From Halichondria panicea (lineage: Eukaryota; Porifera; Demospongiae; Suberitida; Halichondriidae), in assembly GCF_963675165.1 (NCBI RefSeq), contig NC_087377.1, positions 1,637,501-1,701,500 of the forward strand: a stretch of 64,000 nucleotides of DNA. The letters run 5' to 3'. A program made the position numbers and the translations under genes. How positions within the stretch are numbered: position 1 is the first letter of the stretch; the number at the start of each line of letters is the position of its first letter. Under the pieces are notes generated by a model. The model did no database searches. It was not told the origin of the DNA and saw nothing but the letters and a program-made list of their open reading frames with translations. This document shows positions 6,565-64,000 of this stretch, in pieces.

Positions 6565-6730
6565 AATAAACAACCAGGAGGGGGAGACGGACCAGGTGAA
6601 CGATACACCGGACACCAACCAGGAGGGGGAGACGGACCAGGTGAACGATACACCGGACATGCACCAACCAGGAGAGAGAGACGGACCAGGTGAACGATAC
6701 ACCAGACACCAACCAGGAGGTGAAATATAC
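6565..6730 (+). repeat. Minisatellite, ~45 bp unit, about 4 copies
   Basis: Tandem units built from ACCAACCAGGAGGGGGAGACGG-type sequence followed by ACCAGGTGAACGATACACCGG. Open frames on the minus strand are by-products of the unit lengths. The array ends exactly where homology to the right palindrome arm begins, so it marks the outer breakpoint of the inverted repeat. Confidence 0.85.
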
Positions 6731-25904: not shown

Positions 25905-28795
25905 CCCTAACCCCCAGTTGTTAATGATATTCATAGCACCACACGCGTGCATTACGCCCACATATTGATATTCATGGTTGTTGTGGTTTGTTGGGCTCCT
26001 CCCACGAGCCTTTGATGTGGACGAGCCTTTTCCTCTGCTGTACTGTACCTATGTGCCCTAACCCCCCCAGTAGTTAATTATATTCATAGCACCACTAGCG
26101 TGCGGTACGCCCACATAATGACATTCATGGTTGTTGTGGTTTGTTGGGCTCCTCCCACGAGCCTTTGATGTGGACGAGCCTTTTCCTCTGCTGTACTGTA
26201 CCTATGTGCCCTAACCCCCCCCCCCCCAGTAGTTAATGATATTCATAGCACCACTAGCGTGCGGTACGCCCACATAATGACATTCATGGTTGTTGTGGTT
26301 TGTTGGGCTCCTCCCACGAGCCTTTGATGTGGACGAGCCTTTTCCTCTGCTGTACTGTACCTATGTGCCCTAACCCCCCCCCCAGTAGTTAATGATATTC
26401 ATAGCACCACTAGCGTGTGGTACGCCCACATAATGACATTCATGGTTGTTGTGGTTTGTTGGGCTCCTCCCACGAGCCTTTGATGGGGACGAGCCTTTTC
26501 CACGAGCCTTTTCCTCTGCTGTACTGTACCTGTGTGCCCTAACCCCCCCCCCCAGTAGTTAATTATATTCATAGCACCACACTCGTGCGGTACGCCCACG
26601 TAATGACATTCATGGTTGTTGTGGTTTGTTGGGCTCCTCCCACGAGCCTTTTCCTCTGCTGTACTGTACCTATGTGCCCTAACCCCCCCCCCCCCAGTAG
26701 TTAATGATATTCATAGCACCACTAGCGTGCGGTACGCCCACATAATGACATTCATGGTTGTTGTGGTTTGTTGGGCTCCTCCCACGAGCCTTTGATGTGG
26801 ACGAGCCTTTTCCTCTGCTGTACTGTACCTATGTGCCCTAACCCCCCCCCCAGTAGTTAATGATATTCATAGCACCACTAGCGTGTGGTACGCCCACATA
26901 ATGACATTCATGGTTGTTGTGGTTTGTTGGGCTCCTCCCACGAGCCTTTGATGGGGACGAGCCTTTTCCACGAGCCTTTTCCTCTGCTGTACTGTACCTG
27001 TGTGCCCTAACCCCCCCCCCCAGTAGTTAATTATATTCATAGCACCACACTCGTGCGGTACGCCCACGTAATGACATTCATGGTTGTTGTGGTTTGTTGG
27101 GCTCCTCCCACGAGCCTTTTCCTCTGCTGTACTGTACCTATGTGCCCTAACCCCCCCCCCCCAGTAGTTAATGATATTCATAGCACCACTAGCGTGTGGT
27201 ACACCCACGTAATGACATTCATGGTTGTTGTGGTTTGTTGGGCTCCTCCCACGAGCCTTTGATGTGGACGAGCCTTTTCCTCTGCTGTACTGTACCTATG
27301 TGCCCTAACCCCCCCCCCCCCAGTAGTTAATGATATTCATAGCACCACTAGCGCGTGGTACGCCCACGTAATGACATTCATGGTTGTTGTGGTTTGTTGG
27401 GCTCCTCCCACGAGCCTTTGATGTGGACGAGCCTTTTCCTCTGCTGTACTGTACCTATGTGCCCTAACCCCCCCCCCCAGTTGTTAATGATATTCATAGC
27501 ACCACTAGCATGTGGTACGCCCACGTAATGACATTCATGGTTGTTGTGGTTTGTTGGGCTCCTCCCACGAGCCTTTTCCTCTGCTGTACTGTACCTATGT
27601 GCCCTAACCCCCCCCCCCAGTAGTTAATGATATTCATAGCACCACTAGCGTGTGGTACACCCACGTAATGACATTCATGGTTGTTGTGGTTTGTTGGGCT
27701 CCTCCCACGAGCCTTTGATGTGGACGAGCCTTTTCCTCTGCTGTACTGTACCTATGTGCCCTAACCCCCCCCCCCCAGTAGTTAATGATATTCATAGCAC
27801 CACTAGCGCGTGGTACGCCCACGTAATGACATTCATGGTTGTTGTGGTTTGTTGGGCTCCTCCCACGAGCCTTTGATGTGGACGAGCCTTTTCCTCTGCT
27901 GTACTGTACCTATGTGCCCTAACCCCCCCCCCCCCCCCCCCCCCAGTTGTTAATGATATTCATAGCACCACTAGCATGTGGTACGCCCACGTAATGACAT
28001 TCATGGTTGTTGTGGTTTGTTGGGCTCCTCCCACGAGCCTTTGATGGGGACGAGCCTTTTCCTCTGCTGTACTGTACCTATGTGCCCTAACCCCTCCCCC
28101 CCCCCCCCCAGTAGTTAATGATATTCATAGCACCACTAGCGTGCGGTACGCCCACGTAATGACATTCATGGTTGTTGTGGTTTGTTGGGCTCCTCCCACG
28201 AGCCTTTGATGGGGACGAGCCTTTTCCTCTGCTGTACTGTATCTATGTGCCCTAACCCCCCCAGTAGTTAATGATATTCATAGCACCACTAGCGTGCGGT
28301 ACGCCCACGTAATGACATTCATGGTTGTTGTGGTTTGTTGGGCTCCTCCCACGAGCCTTTGATGTGGACGAGCCTTTTCCTCTGCTGTACTGTACCTATG
28401 TGCCCTAACCCCCCCCCCCCAGTAGTTAATGATATTCATAGCACCACTAGCGTGCGGTACGCCCACATAATGACATTCATGGTTGTTGTGGTTTGTTGGG
28501 CTCCTCCCACGAGCCTTTGATGTGGACGAGCCTTTTCCTCTGCTGTACTGTACCTATGTGCCCTAAACCCCCCCCCCCCCCCCCCAGTAGTTAATGATAT
28601 TCATAGCACCACTAGCGTGCGGTACGCCCACATAATGACATTCATGGTTGTTGTGGTTTGTTGGGCTCCTCCCACGAGCCTTTGATGTGGACGAGCCTTT
28701 TCCTCTGCTGTACTGTACCTATGCGCCCTAACCCCCCCCCCAGTAGTTAATGATATTCATAGCACCACTAGCGTGTGGTACGCCCACATAATGAC
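25905..28795 (+). repeat. Satellite, ~155 bp unit, 19 copies with poly-C tracts
   Basis: The phrase ATTCATAGCACCAC recurs 19 times, from about 25930 to 28756. Each unit runs through GTACGCCCACRTAATGACATTC, TTGTTGTGGTTTGTTGGGC, CTCCTCCCACGAGCC, CTGCTGTACTGTACC and GTGCCCTAA, then a C-run varying from about 5 to over 20. Units vary by a ~17 bp GATGTGGACGAGCCTTTT segment present, absent or doubled. Open frames on both strands are repeat artefacts. The last unit ends about 60 bp before the transposase reading region. Confidence 0.95.
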
Positions 28796-28856
28796 ATTCA
28801 TAGCCTGTCCCCCACCTGCACTGGCGAGCACTCTTGTGGTACTCTAATGATATTCA

Positions 28857-56949: not shown

Positions 56950-57618
56950 ATGGCTACTGGACAAGACTCAGGGTGAGTGAACACATGTAGACTATAGAGT
57001 GCCACCTTGTGATTGCATGGAGGGAGGATCATTCCATTAGTCAGAGGTGGAATCAGCTCATCAGAATTGGAGCTCATCAATGGAAGCTCTGCATGTTGTG
57101 TTACTCTAGCTAGTAACTTGCATATACCACCATGCATCAAGAAGTACTTTGATTGTAATAATTATTATAATTGTCCGTACACAAACTTGACCCCCTAACA
57201 CACACATATCAGGTTAGTGCCGTGGATTCGCAAGAAACTCGGTTTCAAGACCCAAGCAGAGAGGAGAACGTGAGCAAAATACAGTTTAGCTTGCAATTAA
57301 TTTTAACAGGCTATAAAAATATTATAGCTAATCATTGTCAGGGTGTCATACAGGGATATCCTCCCTCTGGCTCCAATTCCCCCCCTCACCTAAAATTTGC
57401 ATTCAGGTACTAGTTGTATGACTGAGTGACCATAGCTGGCAGTGTTACATACTAAAACAGGGTATTGAAATAACAGTTGACCTTTTTCAGAAAAATGTTC
57501 TGGTTACTTTTCAAAAGCACGCCTTATTTCCCCCTCTATACTAAATCCTTATTGACACCACCTGATTGTTATAGTGTGGAGCTTATAAATGCTCACAAGA
57601 GCTTATTAATGTACATTG

Positions 57619-57655
<37 letters not shown>

Positions 57656-57770
57656 CACACAGGAGACTGGAAACTGAACCAGATATACCCAGGTAAGCAA
57701 TTTGTTGAATTACATGTCCCACACACACACCCACCCACACACACATACACACACACCATACACACACCTA

Positions 57771-57819
<49 letters not shown>

Positions 57820-60800
57820 GAGGCTGGACACTGAACCAGATACACCCAGGTAAGCAATTTGTTGAATTGCATGTCCCACACACACACCCACCCACACACA
57901 CATACACACACACCATACAAACACCTACACACACACACCTACACACACACACATGCACACAGGAGACTGGACACTGTGCCAGATACACCCAGGTAAGCAA
58001 TTTGTTGAATTGCATGTCCCACACACACATGCACACACACCATACACACACCACACACACACACCTACACACATCACACAGCAGACTGGAAACTGAACCA
58101 GATACACCCACGTAAGCAATTTGTTGAATTGCATGTCACACACGCACACCTACCTACAAAATGTACCTATACCCACACACACACACATGCACACACTATT
58201 GTACATGCAGTGTTCAGGAGCAGCTGGCCAGGGATCTGTGGGAGGCTGTAGACAATAGGGATGTCAGCAAAGTGAGGTCCGTTTTGGGACAGGGGGCCAA
58301 CCCCAATCACCAGCTCTACTGGAGTGAGGAGTGGAGTGCCAATTATAGACCACTTCCAGTACACGAAGCATGCTACCAGGGCTACCTGGAGATCACTAGA
58401 GCACTCGTTAGTGGTGGAGCTGATATTGAGAAAGGTGATGGAATGTTGCGCAGGACTGCATTTCACTGGGCGTGTGGGGGAGGACATATGGAGACTGTGG
58501 TGTATTTATCACAAGAGATAAAATGTCGTATTGGTAAGTGTGTGTCAGTCGCGTAGTGTTCATAGCTAAAGGATTGAGCCCAACAAGAATGTTTTTATAG
58601 ACTGTTTAATTTCCTAGATTACAAAACATGCATGTGTTGATGTACATGTAGATTGTAATAATAATTATAAGACATGTTTTTTCAAGTAATTTCTAATTTC
58701 CCACAATCCTTGATACTGTGTACACGCACACTAATAACATAATTATCTCACCCAGCTGGGATAATTACTGACCAGCACGGAGAAGCTTAATACTGCATGA
58801 TGTATTTATTATCATAATTAACTTCATTTTGAATACTATACAAACCAATAATACATTTTAGTTGAGTTGTCATTGTGTGTGCATGTCATCACTACACTGA
58901 GGTTATATCACCACATACAGATGTGAGGGGCAAGATAAACCAAACACCACTGCACCTGGCTTGTGCGGGAGGAAGTATACAAGTAGTGAAATACCTTGTG
59001 GAGGTACTCAAGGTTGATGTTGGTGAGTCATTTTGTAGTGGGTACCGTTTCATTAGATCCTCTGATTGGAAATGTAAACAACTCGTGAATTAATCAGTGT
59101 ACCTGTATGTATCATCATGTAGTCATAATTATAATTATGGTAACTGTAATACAATACATACACGATACTAATATTATAATAATAGGCATCCTGTACTCGA
59201 TAAGTATCAATGCTGTCAGTACTACTACAAGATCTCTGTCCCTTACCTGTCCAGATGTGACTGATTATTTTGGCAAGACTCCTCTTGACTATGCAGTACA
59301 TTATAGGAGCACTGAAGTTGTTGAATATCTCCGGTCTCTACAACCCTCCACTCCTAAACCAGGTATGTGTCTCTAGAAATCCCATACCTAATTTCCACAA
59401 ACAGTGGTGTATGAAGCTTAAATTTGGTACACCAATAGAGCAAGCCATGCCGGTTTCATAGATACCTTCGTTGTTTTTGTAGGACAAATGGTTGTGGTAC
59501 AATTACATGTTTTGTAGACCCCCAATAATACCGGCGTGGAATGTGGAATGTACCAGGCATACAGTACATGGGGATGAAAGTGGATCAATATACCCCCCCC
59601 ATAATGTTAGGGATATCCCCCTGGCTAACTTTCCCCCACCCCCTAACATTTGCATTAGATACTACGTTCCTAGGGATTAATTATAGCAGTAAACCCAAGC
59701 CCGATTACTTAAAGTCCTGGTATACCGGTTATTTTAAGCCACAAAAAACGACAATGATACTATAGAATAGATAACAATAGATGCATGTACATAAGTCTGG
59801 TAACAATATAGATAAATGTACACAAGTGCTTGTTTAGATACTATACTTACTCTGTGCCTTTGACAAAGGTTTGCTCCCACTGTTTGGCTACAGGCCATTT
59901 AAATAACATGCAGTTGCTTCAGTATCGTTGAAGATTATTCATCAAGCCATCAGATAGGCTTCTGTTTATATTAGGCTCCTCTCCTATAATGACTGTGTGG
60001 AATTCAATCAACAATAATAACGTAACATTATACCTCTTCACCTCTTCGTCTTCTTGAGTGAAAGCAAAACAACGGCGAGAGGCATTAGCACAGCGCAGCG
60101 TACACCACTCGTTATGTCAAGTGGTTCTGACCTTTTGTGTACAGTCTATTGAAGTTGGTTTGTATGACTGTCAGATAACTATCTCATTCCTCCTCCAGTG
60201 ACCTCTGACCCTCTCTATGGTCAACAGACACCCAGTGCTGGCAATGAACAACCAGAAACAACTGGTAGGAGACTCTATTATAGCCCAACAATGATCATGT
60301 GCATGCCTACCCATCTACTATAGAACGAAGACCTTTCTACGGTGGCCATGAGCGCTACTAGTATTTCACCTTAGCTACTTGATAGTTCAACTACCTTAGC
60401 TACTTCGCAGTTGACCTTTGAACTGTATGTTAATTCTAATTAATGCTGCTGTAGCCATGCTCTACATAGCGACTAGAGATCAACAATGAGAGCTACATAT
60501 GTATACAGGTACTGAGGATTATCTGCAGCCAAGTCAGTTCTACCCTATGGGTAACAGCAATGCAAGACGAGAGTGCCACACTTGATTCATTTGGAAGTTA
60601 CATGTTATTTAGCAAATACAATACTAGATAGAGCTAGGATTAGGGGACCTCTTTCTCCTCTTCCCCCTCCCCCCTCTGGCCCCCAGACTAATGCAGTTTA
60701 AGTTGTCCACGTTTATATCTCTGTGTAGGTCTATGCCTAATCCCATCGCAACAAAATAATTCTGTACTATAGATACAATGAATCTGGCTCTCGTCTTGCA

Positions 60801-63800
60801 TTGCTGTTAGCATAATTATGTAGCTCTCATTATTGATCTAGTCGCTATGTAGAGTATGGCTACAGCAGCGTTAACATACATACAGTTCAAAGGTCAACTG
60901 CAAAGTAGCTAAGGTACTAGGGTGAACTATCAAGTAGCTAAGGTGAACTACTAGTTAGCGCTCAGGGCCACCGTACCTTTCGGTTATATACTGTGTTACA
61001 TGACTGGTTACTTGTACACCCTCATGCAGATACTCCAAATGGTTCCACACAACTTTCAACGGATGACCAAACCTTGTCAAGTGAGTAATAAGGGCATACA
61101 GTACATGGGGAGGAAAGTGGATCAATTTACCCCCCCCCCACATAATGTTAGGGACATCCCCCTGGCTCACTTTCCCCCACCCACTAACCTCTATAAAATT
61201 ATATGTGTATTCAATTACTACCTTGTATGATCGAGTATGCAAAGACAACGTGTATATAGCCACCCAGAATTCGATCACCTAAGAACACCTAATTAAACAA
61301 AAATTGTCTGAGAGTACATGCCCGTATAGTGTTCATTTTAACATTTCTGTGATTCTGATTATCTGTGAGTGTTATAGCTGAAGTCACGTATCATGTTATC
61401 ATGCACTAGCTAATAGCAGTATGTATTCATTTGGTGTTTCGCATTGTCAGCTTTGTCAACATTGCTGGTTGTGTTTGCAGGCACTCCATTGACTGAGGAA
61501 GACTCTGATGCTCTAGAAAAGCTGCTCCTAGACAAAAAAATCAAAAGATTTGTTAAAAGGACATATGAGGCAGTAGTCCACCACCTTCGTGAGGAGCTCG
61601 GACACGGGGAACTCGCCGACAACCTGAGAGCGAACCTCGACAAAGGTGGGTAGTAGTTGTAAGAGCCGTGGGTAGTAGTAGGTGGGTTGCTGTATTGAAG
61701 TTATACTCACCTGTGTTGAATATTGCATTGTACGAAGCCTCTCAAGATGAAAGGGGGTTATTTCACTTTAAATATACCGTTGATCTGGGTTTCTGAAAGA
61801 GACCTTTCAAACGATTATTTGAATAGCACGAAGGCATATTAACGTAATAACTGCCATGGTTATTAGTAGACCACATTTAATGATATTCGTACCTATTTGA
61901 TACCACAAATAACCACACTAAGTTATTAGGTTGACGGGTGGTGCATTAGGCTTCCCCATCGTGTATATGATATCAGTATTGGAAGTGTCATGTTGCGTGG
62001 TCTGCCTGAGGGCATCACTGATGCATGTTCATGTCGAAAGATTATTTTAAACGAAGGGCCTGCATGGGGTTATTTTATAGTTGAACATTTTTAGTACTGA
62101 GCTTTTCGAATGTGTCAATCCAAAACTTCGTCCGGGGATATAATTTGTTGCATGTGGCCAATGTAATAATAAACTTTGTTGATAACTGAATTTGAAAGAT
62201 CTCTTTCTAAGCTCTTAGAAAAAATAAAATTGAATCCACTATATATACCTGTAGTAGACTGTCGCTATTCCGGCTCTCTGAAGTACGGCCACCTCGATAT
62301 ACCGGCCATTTGGCTTGGCACAGAATGCTAGCTATAATTATGTTTACTGCACAAAACTCACCCTGAAGTACGGCCACTCGCTATTCCGTTTACCAGCCAG
62401 TGCTGTCTGTCCCAAACAAGGTTTTCAATGTAATTTTATACGTATATTACGGCCGGATATGACGTTTTGGGTGTGGTTTAGCAAATAAAATTGAATTACA
62501 CTTAAATAGAGAACAGAATGATTCATTATCCTACATTATCCTCGAGACAAGAACCGCAAAAGTAGTCATTAGATTCGAGGTATGGTCGTTTTTAAGCCGC
62601 GGCTATTTCCTGAGCTACAGCCACCTCGCTATTCCGGCCAAGCTGCATGGTCTAGAGGGTGACCGGATTAACGAGAGTCTACTGTACATTATATTCGGCT
62701 TCAGTCCAAATTGCCTGTGTATAGTTGTAATGTAAACTCTCAGTGCATGTCTGTACAATATCAATAACATAACGTGTTTGAGTGTATACAGTTTAATAAT
62801 TATTGCTCTTTCTTATATGCAGTGATTGGAGAGCAAAAGCGATATCTGAAGAAATTGGATGATCTGATGACTGACAAAGACACTATCTCCATGCAGTACC
62901 TCCGCCTCCTTCTTGTCGGGCCACCATTCGTGGGGAAAACAACAACTCTTGGCCGCTTACTGAAAGATATCGAAAACATTAGTTCTGCTGGAGACAAGGC
63001 AAAGCTACGCAGTACGCTACTCACCAATTGCCACCAAGTGGTCGCCTACATGAACAAAGATGCCACAGAATGGGTTTGTTCCAAAGACGTAGAAGAGGAA
63101 GCAAAGATTCTCTTTGGCTACATGTACAGTAGCAAGGTCGATGAAGTTCCGAGTGCCCCAACTGAGAAAAAGACAAAAACTGTCCCTGAAAGCGAAAAGC
63201 ACACAAGCATACCCAAGCCACTCTCTTATGAAAAGCCTCAGTCAAAGCCTCAAGAAGAAACACGCTCTGAAATACAAGAGAATGCTCACCAACAAAACAG
63301 GCTCATACCCATTAAAGCTAGATTACAAAAACTGATAAAGAACGGAAACTACTCTGAAATGGCCAAATGTCTCGGCAACACCTTGCTAAACATCAACGAT
63401 GTTGGAGGACAACCTGCCTTCCTAGAAATGCTACCAGCCCTATGTAATGGTCCGGCCATGTATCTAGTGTTCTTGGATCTAAGCAAGGAACTTGACGAAC
63501 CCTACGATATTCCCTTCAGTCGTGACGACACAGTCATTACTCCATTCAAAGCTGTACACACAGTGGAAGCCACAGTCTCTCAAATCCTCTCAGCAGTTGC
63601 CAGTATCCATCACGTCTCTCGAGAAGATGCCAAGTACAAAACCACCTCCAAATTGAGCGAGAAATTTGAAAAGTTCCAACAAGTTCATCCGGTAGCAGCT
63701 TTGATCGGTACTCACGTGGACAAGCTGGAGAATCCAAAAGAGAAAATCAAGCAGGTCAACGATGCTCTGAAAGCAACCACTCAAAAGTTTGCCGGGATTC

Positions 63801-64000
63801 TTGTATCACCTCCGCCAGATTCTGAATCTTCCTTTTTTGCCGTGGACAACTTTGCTGGAACGGAACAGTCTGACATTGCCCCGATTCGTGATTTCCTGAG
63901 CGATGTTTTTGCGTCTCATTTCAAGGATGCATCTCTGCCCATCAAACCGAAATGGCTCCTACTGGGCACACTACTGCGGATGGAGTACTCAATCGTGTCG
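56950..64000 (+). CDS. Ankyrin-repeat Roc-like GTPase gene, 3' end beyond window
   Basis: Fourteen exons: 56950-56972, 57213-57269, 57663-57692, 57820-57849, 57963-57992, 58082-58111, 58211-58533, 58921-59022, 59255-59362, 60199-60264, 60509-60550, 61030-61080, 61481-61645, 62823-64000. All have AG/GT borders, junction phases agree (2 up to the seventh exon, then 1), and the sum is 745 codons without a stop. Order: M-A-T-G-Q-D-S-G start; four R-L-E-T-E-P-D-T-P repeats; about four ankyrin repeats (residues ~68-245, e.g. T-P-L-H-L-A-C-A-G-G); polar linker; helical exon; then a GTPase with P-loop G-P-P-F-V-G-K-T (385-392), D-V-G-G-Q-P (545-550) and G-T-H-V-D-K-L (648-654). The D-x-G-G-Q and T-H-x-D motifs are typical of Roc domains of ROCO proteins; a COR domain would be expected next. 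The ~150 residues between the first two motifs include a Lys/Pro/Glu-rich insert. Likely a cytoplasmic signalling GTPase; the substrate is unknown. The start is chosen because it is the only ATG giving a phase-2 first exon. Confidence 0.85.
57349..57562. mobile_element. MITE, CAGGGTGTCATACAGG family, copy 2
   Basis: Starts CAGGGTGTCATACAGG and ends near CCTTATTGACACCACCTG. The interior shares TGACTGAGTG.CCATAGCTGG, GGTATTGAAATAACAGTTGACC and TTCTGGTTACTTTTC with 21174-21335. It carries ~50 bp of extra interior sequence. It lies in an intron of the ankyrin-GTPase gene just before the microexon array. Confidence 0.8.
57655..58140 (+). repeat. Tandem array of four 30-nt microexons with their introns
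   Basis: Four units of ~120-160 bp, each a (CA)-rich acceptor tract ending CACACAG, a 30-nt exon (GAGACTGGAAACTGAACC... type), and the same donor intron start GTAAGCAATTTGTTGAATT. Exons at 57663, 57820, 57963 and 58082. They differ by a few substitutions and all keep phase 2, so any number can be included without breaking the frame. Each encodes ten residues, R-L-E/D-T-E/V-P-D-I/T-P-R/S/T. Arrays of this kind arise by unequal exchange through the intronic CA tracts. Confidence 0.9.
59550..59660 (+). repeat. Short intronic repeat, copy 1 (partner at 61098-61190)
   Basis: GCATACAGTACATGGGG, AAAGTGGATCAAT, a C-tract, ATAATGTTAGGGA, ATCCCCCTGGCT and AACTTTCCCCCACCC recur in order at 61098-61190. 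The two halves (GGGG.GAAAGTGG and CTAACTTTCCCCC) are weakly inverted, so it is probably a MITE fragment. Both copies lie in introns of the GTPase gene. Confidence 0.75.
60338..60976. repeat. Local inverted repeat spanning one exon
   Basis: Left arm 60338-60585 and right arm ~60775-60976: TACGGTGGCC.TGAGCGCTA pairs with TAGCGCTCAGGGCCACCGTA, and GCTGCTGTAGCCAT, CTACATAGCGACTAGA and CAGCAATGCAAGACGAGAG pair similarly. The left arm contains exon 60509-60550 with its splice sites; the right arm has only about ten unrelated bases at that point. The ~190 bp loop is C/T-rich. Confidence 0.8.
61646..62822 (+). other. Long last intron in window
   Basis: 1.18 kb intron of the GTPase gene with donor GTGGGT and acceptor TTATATGCAG. 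Apart from the MITE at 62250-62687 it shows no coding signal. Confidence 0.7.
62250..62687. mobile_element. Candidate pogo/Tc1-type MITE
   Basis: The left end TGTAGTAGACTGTCGCTATTCCGG and the right end, reversed, TACAGTAGACTCTCGTTAATCCGG form inverted ends beside TA. Internal repeats of GTACGGCCACCTCG and CGCTATTCCGG occur at ~62286, 62366 and 62626. Ends of the type CAGTAGACTCTCG.TAATCCGG are, from memory, common in non-autonomous pogo-like elements. No ORF. Confidence 0.55.

Follow-up and report, generated by a model that had tools for sequence, protein, structure and literature searches.

The 64,000-nucleotide stretch of the Halichondria panicea genome analysed here, referred to as the window, contains a predicted ankyrin-GTPase gene in which four near-identical 30-nt segments lie in a row upstream of the first ankyrin exon. 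The locus raises the question of whether these segments are coding microexons, the number of which changes between genes without damage to the reading frame, or repeats within an intron. The features of the gene are as follows.

56950..56972, + strand: predicted exon 1, 23 nt, with the MATGQDSG start, ending in phase 2
57213..57269, + strand: predicted exon 2, 57 nt, with phase 2 at both ends, encoding LVPWIRKKLGFKTQAERRT
57622..57662, + strand: CA tract and AG acceptor of candidate microexon 1
57663..57692, + strand: candidate microexon 1, RLETEPDIP, type C
57693..57819, + strand: first intron between microexons, 127 nt, starting with GTAAGCAATTTG, with a CA-rich 3' end
57820..57849, + strand: candidate microexon 2, RLDTEPDTP, type D
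57963..57992, + strand: candidate microexon 3, RLDTVPDTP, type a
58082..58111, + strand: candidate microexon 4, RLETEPDTP, type q, the initial CAG of which gives a NAGNAG acceptor (27 or 30 nt)
58211..58533, + strand: first ankyrin exon, 323 nt, hypervariable among paralogues
58921..59022, + strand: predicted second ankyrin exon, boundaries set by eye
59186..59362, + strand: predicted third ankyrin exon, boundaries set by eye (59187-59363 in the identity comparison)
62823..64000, + strand: exon with a P-loop GTPase of weak Roc similarity, start set by eye, extending beyond the window end

A sequence-only reading of this DNA had described four near-identical 30-nt units with CA-tract acceptors and a common donor, fitting in phase 2 between the N-terminal and ankyrin exons, and at the level of sequence this description was confirmed, the limits given for the array (57655-58140) being slightly wider than the segments themselves. 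Each of the four segments is preceded by ACACAG, is followed by GTAAGC and lies in phase 2. The distances from start to start are 157, 143 and 119 nt, and the second and third introns between the segments are 113 and 89 nt long; the acceptors of exon 2 and of the ankyrin exon are likewise CA-rich. In silico joining of exon 1, exon 2, the four segments and the first ankyrin exon gave a frame without a stop, with junctions in phase 2: MATGQDSG-LVPWIRKKLGFKTQAERRT-RLETEPDIPR-RLDTEPDTPR-RLDTVPDTPS-RLETEPDTPT-VQEQLARDLWEAV... Tandem exon duplication in general is represented by head-to-tail copies of a phase-symmetric exon, and the arrangement that defines it, namely, at least two adjacent homologous exons with their own splice sites in one gene, is present here as far as sequence alone can tell.

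The probability of such a pattern arising by chance was estimated from candidates consisting of YAG and GTAAG separated by 18-60 nt open in phase 2, counted in the stretch 57600-58210 and in 1000 first-order Markov resamples of it. The stretch contains five candidates, i.e., the four segments and the 27-nt NAGNAG variant of the fourth copy; the resamples contain 0.018 candidates on average and 2 at most, none of the 1000 reaching 4. In the whole 64-kb window, the + strand has 18 candidates and the - strand 19, and those of exactly 30 nt on the + strand are the four array segments only. The pattern of the array is not random; tandem duplication alone suffices for non-randomness, so splicing is not implied by it.

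The same array was then looked for in paralogues, a check that had been proposed together with the description, within the genome of the window itself (131 Mb, 39 contigs, one assembly). The first ankyrin exon has at least 115 genome matches at E 1e-5 (150 of the 279 candidates scored); 41 genes were examined, comprising the window gene and the upstream stretches, cut at about 2.4-2.7 kb, of 40 ankyrin-exon matches. A genome-wide DNA search with a 76-nt unit gave 42 matches, corresponding one to one with 42 copies, each situated ahead of a first ankyrin exon. The 15 genes concerned, namely, the window gene together with 14 of the 40 stretches, all lie on one contig between about 1.27 and 2.38 Mb. 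Two copies are present in eight genes, three copies in three, four copies in three and five copies in one, the copy number differing among close paralogues as is characteristic of variable internal tandem repeats. All 42 copies are intact: the length of 30 nt, the open phase-2 frame, the AG acceptor, in the form of a preceding ACACAG, and the GTAAG donor are retained without exception.

Among the remaining 26 stretches, L018 contains one diverged copy, absent from the whole-genome unit matches, L015 and L011 each contain a truncated copy that lacks the donor, and in 23 no match rises above noise; for these 23, a copy upstream of the cut is detectable only through the whole-genome search, which recognises close sequences only. 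The deletions in L015 and L011 took the end of the exon together with the donor, and the remaining exons, read by eye, are still joinable in phase 2. The L018 copy retains 24 of 30 exon bases with AG and GT intact, and the following intron bases match at 9 of 26 positions.

These observations bear on an alternative, according to which the units are pseudo-exons that form a minisatellite within an intron and are ignored by the spliceosome, the AG, the GT and the open frame being copied by duplication. Change in copy number and homogeneity of the copies would be possible in this case without splicing, and the genes without a found copy, as well as the loss of a usable one from L015 and L011, agree with it; the retention of splice signals, length and phase in 42 of 42 copies does not, nor does the preservation of exon and splice sites in L018 beside a diverged intron, although an insertion may simply have taken the place of the intron start in L018. 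The donor CAG|GTAAGC, found in 27 of 42 copies and close to the metazoan donor consensus, is a further argument against pseudo-exons. The absence of indels from intact copies is weak evidence for exons, since deletions in the exon do happen, as is evident from the two damaged copies.

Nucleotide diversity in 33 colinear copies is 0.086 in the microexon vs. 0.013 in the 26 intron bases that follow it; copies with an indel in the intron start (9 of 42) were dropped from this count. Variable sites number 8 of 30 in the exon and 2 of 26 in the intron, a difference that is not significant (Fisher p 0.087) and involves copies that are not independent; the strong conservation of the intron is expected from recent duplication alone. 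The nine variable microexon sites include one synonymous, seven residue-changing and one in a codon changing at two sites together. For the 27-nt core, the neutral expectation is 58 nonsynonymous, 21 synonymous and 2 stop changes out of 81, and since this expectation is also mostly nonsynonymous, selection was not inferred from the dominance of residue changes. The residues of the 42 copies vary in a way that reveals neither purifying nor positive selection, and the lack of visible purifying selection agrees with pseudo-exons.

Retrocopies were searched for as proof of splicing with a 258-nt spliced query; in none of the 77 matches does coverage of a second exon exceed an overhang of about 13 nt. 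At C1:1017499 (L042, C1:1012000-1019500), a long open frame was considered as an intronless copy and rejected, since the frame passes through N; the ankyrin exon of this paralogue enters a long N stretch.

The acceptors carry CA tracts and no clear polypyrimidine tract, which speaks against a coding role, although the same CA richness is found at the acceptors of exon 2 and of the ankyrin exon. The strict length, phase and splice signals of all 42 copies, together with the exon that L018 keeps over its intron and the joint loss of donor and exon end in both damaged copies, argue for exons, and coding use of the microexons is considered probable, the intronic pseudo-exon array being an unlikely explanation. 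The preferred reading, to which a probability of about 0.72 is assigned, is that the array consists of real frame-neutral coding microexons derived by tandem duplication of an exon-plus-intron unit, the copy number of which kept changing by exchange or conversion. One such unit would have been duplicated in tandem; every unit is flanked by a CA microsatellite, and unequal exchange or conversion between units would have altered the copy number (2-5, also loss) as the genes of the family duplicated. With recombination in the CA tracts as the probable cause of these changes and the microexons presumably spliced into mRNA, each copy would add ten residues to a linker that is charged, contains TP and is probably disordered. 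This linker would separate the MATGQDSG/exon-2 N-terminus from the first ankyrin repeats in a protein of ankyrin-GTPase (Roc-like) type, in which weak Ig-like and Death-like pieces perhaps follow. Linker length would then be a dial, either tolerated or selected. Any copy number keeps the frame, because the boundaries in the array slot are in phase 2.

Regulated choice of a subset of copies, perhaps via CA-binding factors, would yield several linker lengths per gene; such an alternative-splicing cassette is compatible with the preferred reading and implies coding use. In vertebrates, hnRNP L regulates splicing via CA-rich elements. The copies of the array are phase-symmetric, nearly identical and preceded by CA tracts, and the NAGNAG acceptor of copy 4 offers a further choice, but the strong, near-identical donors fit constitutive inclusion of every copy equally well, and regulated choice is regarded as somewhat unlikely.

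The order of the units differs between genes. With types named by sequence, the window gene is represented by the string C-D-a-q, L003 by C-D-B, L005 by A-B-C-D-B, L004 by A-B-Z-Z and L001 by A-B-Z, and the eight two-copy genes by A-Z, A-Y or A-z. The first copy belongs to type A in 13 of the 15 array genes, and the last copy has the TCACACAG acceptor in 14 of 15. These mosaic strings fit unequal exchange between CA-flanked units, with an ancestral layout that was perhaps two-copy, and type Y, the centre of which is A-like and the ends Z-like, suggests conversion. CA-tract repeats are prone to collapse or expansion, and the copy number might accordingly be an artefact of assembly; this is highly improbable, given that base differences and intron lengths set the copies apart from one another and that the two-copy layout with type A first recurs in eight genes.

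The introns between copies (n=27) are 66-188 nt long. Mean divergence among 15 genes is 1.0% in intron 1 and 2.9% in intron 2; the last 95 nt upstream of the ankyrin exon give 1.7%. One 50-column stretch of intron 2, with a pi of 0.108, equals the exons in divergence. Exon 2 and the last intron could be aligned only unreliably, and their values were left out. Since introns 1 and 2 diverge little, the changes in copy number are considered recent. Well-supported inner branches number 2 of 13 in the tree of the ankyrin exon and 2 of 12 in that of the introns, and the groupings differ between both; because of this poor support and disagreement, no number of copy-number events is given. The earlier interpretation was borne out in part: an exon-like tandem array, the copy number of which is changeable in a frame-safe way, is supported by the 15 paralogues, in which two, three, four or five copies occur with the unit types reshuffled; copy number may also vary between alleles, and splicing might select subsets.

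The slot occupied by the array also varies in its other exons. Exon 1 with its donor was matched (at most 6 edits) in 34 of the 41 genes, 17 of these 34 having no array copy or remnant below it; among the copy-less genes, exon 1 of L008 and L020 can, by eye, join the ankyrin exon directly. Of the 16 closest genes, 15 possess exon 2, and the one without it, L016, retains two microexons nonetheless; no exon 2 was recognised by search in L018. In L011 (positions 2085-2204 of L011, C1:4650532-4653532), a 120-nt WW-domain exon with boundaries set by eye (Pfam WW, 54.2 bits for the typed peptide) replaces exon 2, next to the microexon without a donor. L019 is an exception in phase, its shorter exon 2 joining the ankyrin exon in phase 0 (by eye). 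The slot thus appears to be mostly a phase-2 position where optional exons come and go with the frame intact. The microexon itself may conceivably be derived from exon 1, given that exon 1 of L011 reads GCTGAACCAGACCCAG as compared with ACTGAACCAGATACACCCAG, a match too short to judge.

The host gene had been called ROCO-like, and its GTPase exon does resemble Roc weakly, with a Pfam Roc match of 19.2 bits that remains below the curated cut-off of 27; the name is a fair nickname, though the threshold for ROCO proteins is missed. The GTPase domain may be a divergent Roc fold; the exon has no match among PDB sequences at E 0.1. No COR domain was detected in the downstream piece of 314 aa that was searched, which matched no Pfam family at E 0.1. 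Neither NACHT nor NB-ARC was found in the GTPase exon at E up to 1, which leaves the gene outside the definition of an NLR. Open frames beyond the window encode two further pieces, one weakly Ig-like and one weakly Death-like, neither of which reaches its Pfam cut-off; from their order and strand, the ankyrin, GTPase, Ig-like and Death-like pieces are predicted to belong to one transcript. Downstream of a paralogue, at L041:4288-5559, a 423-aa reverse-transcriptase-like frame is located, presumably part of a retrotransposon (by eye).

The ankyrin part of the protein is highly divergent. Among the 15 array genes and L015, which together form the 16 closest genes, mean divergence of the first ankyrin exon reaches 9.5%, against 1.0% and 2.9% for introns 1 and 2. 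Mean dN in this exon is 0.120 and mean dS 0.071, and dN exceeds dS in 115 of 120 pairs, which are not independent and the values of which can be disturbed by conversion. Variation along this exon is concentrated, pi in 30-column stretches ranging from 0.011 to 0.376. Judged by eye, the variable positions (58211-58533 and 58921-59022, paralogues L001-L017) are loop and inner-helix positions resembling a binding face; such positions are those randomised in designed ankyrin binders, and the closest solved sequences to the first ankyrin exon are designed ankyrins. Compared with two paralogues, the window gene shows 83-92% identity in its ankyrin exons and 98-99% in the intervening introns (gaps left out), an excess of exon over intron variation like that of the microexons. 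Over the GTPase stretch, identity to one of these paralogues is 97%, and the other, L043, shows no match to it within the cut stretch. This pattern of ankyrin variation suggests a recognition receptor, and the family resembles the fungal ankyrin-type NLRs.

Several known systems share some of these properties. Compared with tandem exon duplication in general, the exon here is very small, its turnover is high among paralogues with near-identical introns, and its flanks are microsatellites. The micro-exon genes of schistosomes are alike in their short exons (3-81 bp) and variable proteins; micro-exon lengths in schistosomes are mostly frame-neutral. They differ in that they encode secreted proteins and contain mainly different microexons, whereas one microexon is repeated in tandem here, in the first part of a protein with several domains. 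By definition, the coding sequence of a micro-exon gene lies for the most part in symmetric exons of up to 81 bp; in the window gene, small exons are restricted to the N-terminal part, the ankyrin exon measuring 323 nt and the GTPase exon more than 1 kb.

In recent human paralogues, variable internal tandem repeats change exon and intron structure (PMC2812944). In the human segmental-duplication paralogues considered there, e.g., morpheus/NPIP, minisatellite-scale units of 30 bp on average, present four times, vary in number among large paralogue groups, coding sequence or splicing is altered, and slippage or unequal crossover is suggested (PMC2812944). Those repeats are situated inside exons or at exon-intron boundaries (PMC2812944), whereas the unit in the window, in another animal, is a whole acceptor-microexon-donor cassette in CA-rich introns. 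As to the earlier remark that no described case was known in ROCO-like genes, no tandem microexon array or sponge ROCO-ankyrin case was found by title or abstract start, in a search by narrow word combinations with subscription journals mostly outside its reach, but the principle has a precedent in human paralogues (PMC2812944).

The fungal ANK-type NLRs are alike in forming large families with variation in repeat number and in having ankyrin repeats under positive selection, located, with one exception, mostly on the concave binding face (PMC4986451). In those proteins, variation in number concerns the repeats used for recognition, and NACHT or NB-ARC serves as the switch (PMC4986451), whereas here the varying array is a linker at the N-terminus and the nucleotide-binding domain matches Roc weakly.

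If the microexons are spliced in, the locus would offer a clear example from nature of an exon that, flanked by microsatellites, serves as a frame-safe dial of length in ten-residue steps. The 15 sibling genes with 2-5 copies, together with the two genes with damaged copies, represent a ready comparison set. The data also point to a large animal family, separate from the NLRs, in which the ankyrin surface seemingly evolves in the manner of a surface for immune recognition. A broader reading, offered tentatively and considered possible rather than probable, is that of a large non-NLR animal receptor family, in which the ankyrin face would be under diversifying selection and the linker would be tuned by an exon-level minisatellite between genes, alleles and transcripts, the slot also holding other exons such as WW.

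Other tandem repeats were found in the window and in the paralogue stretches. Positions 25911-28801 are occupied by a large array of about 18 tandem copies, the unit being about 159 nt long, and a 45-nt repeat (3.2 copies) is present at 6571-6720; the length of the latter unit is a multiple of three, and it is possibly coding, since by eye it could specify an acidic TP-containing peptide. A shared minisatellite with a unit of about 74-76 nt (TGGCTGTATTATAGAGGGTGG...) was detected in 6 of the 26 paralogue stretches scanned, namely, L015, L026, L030, L032, L035 and L036.
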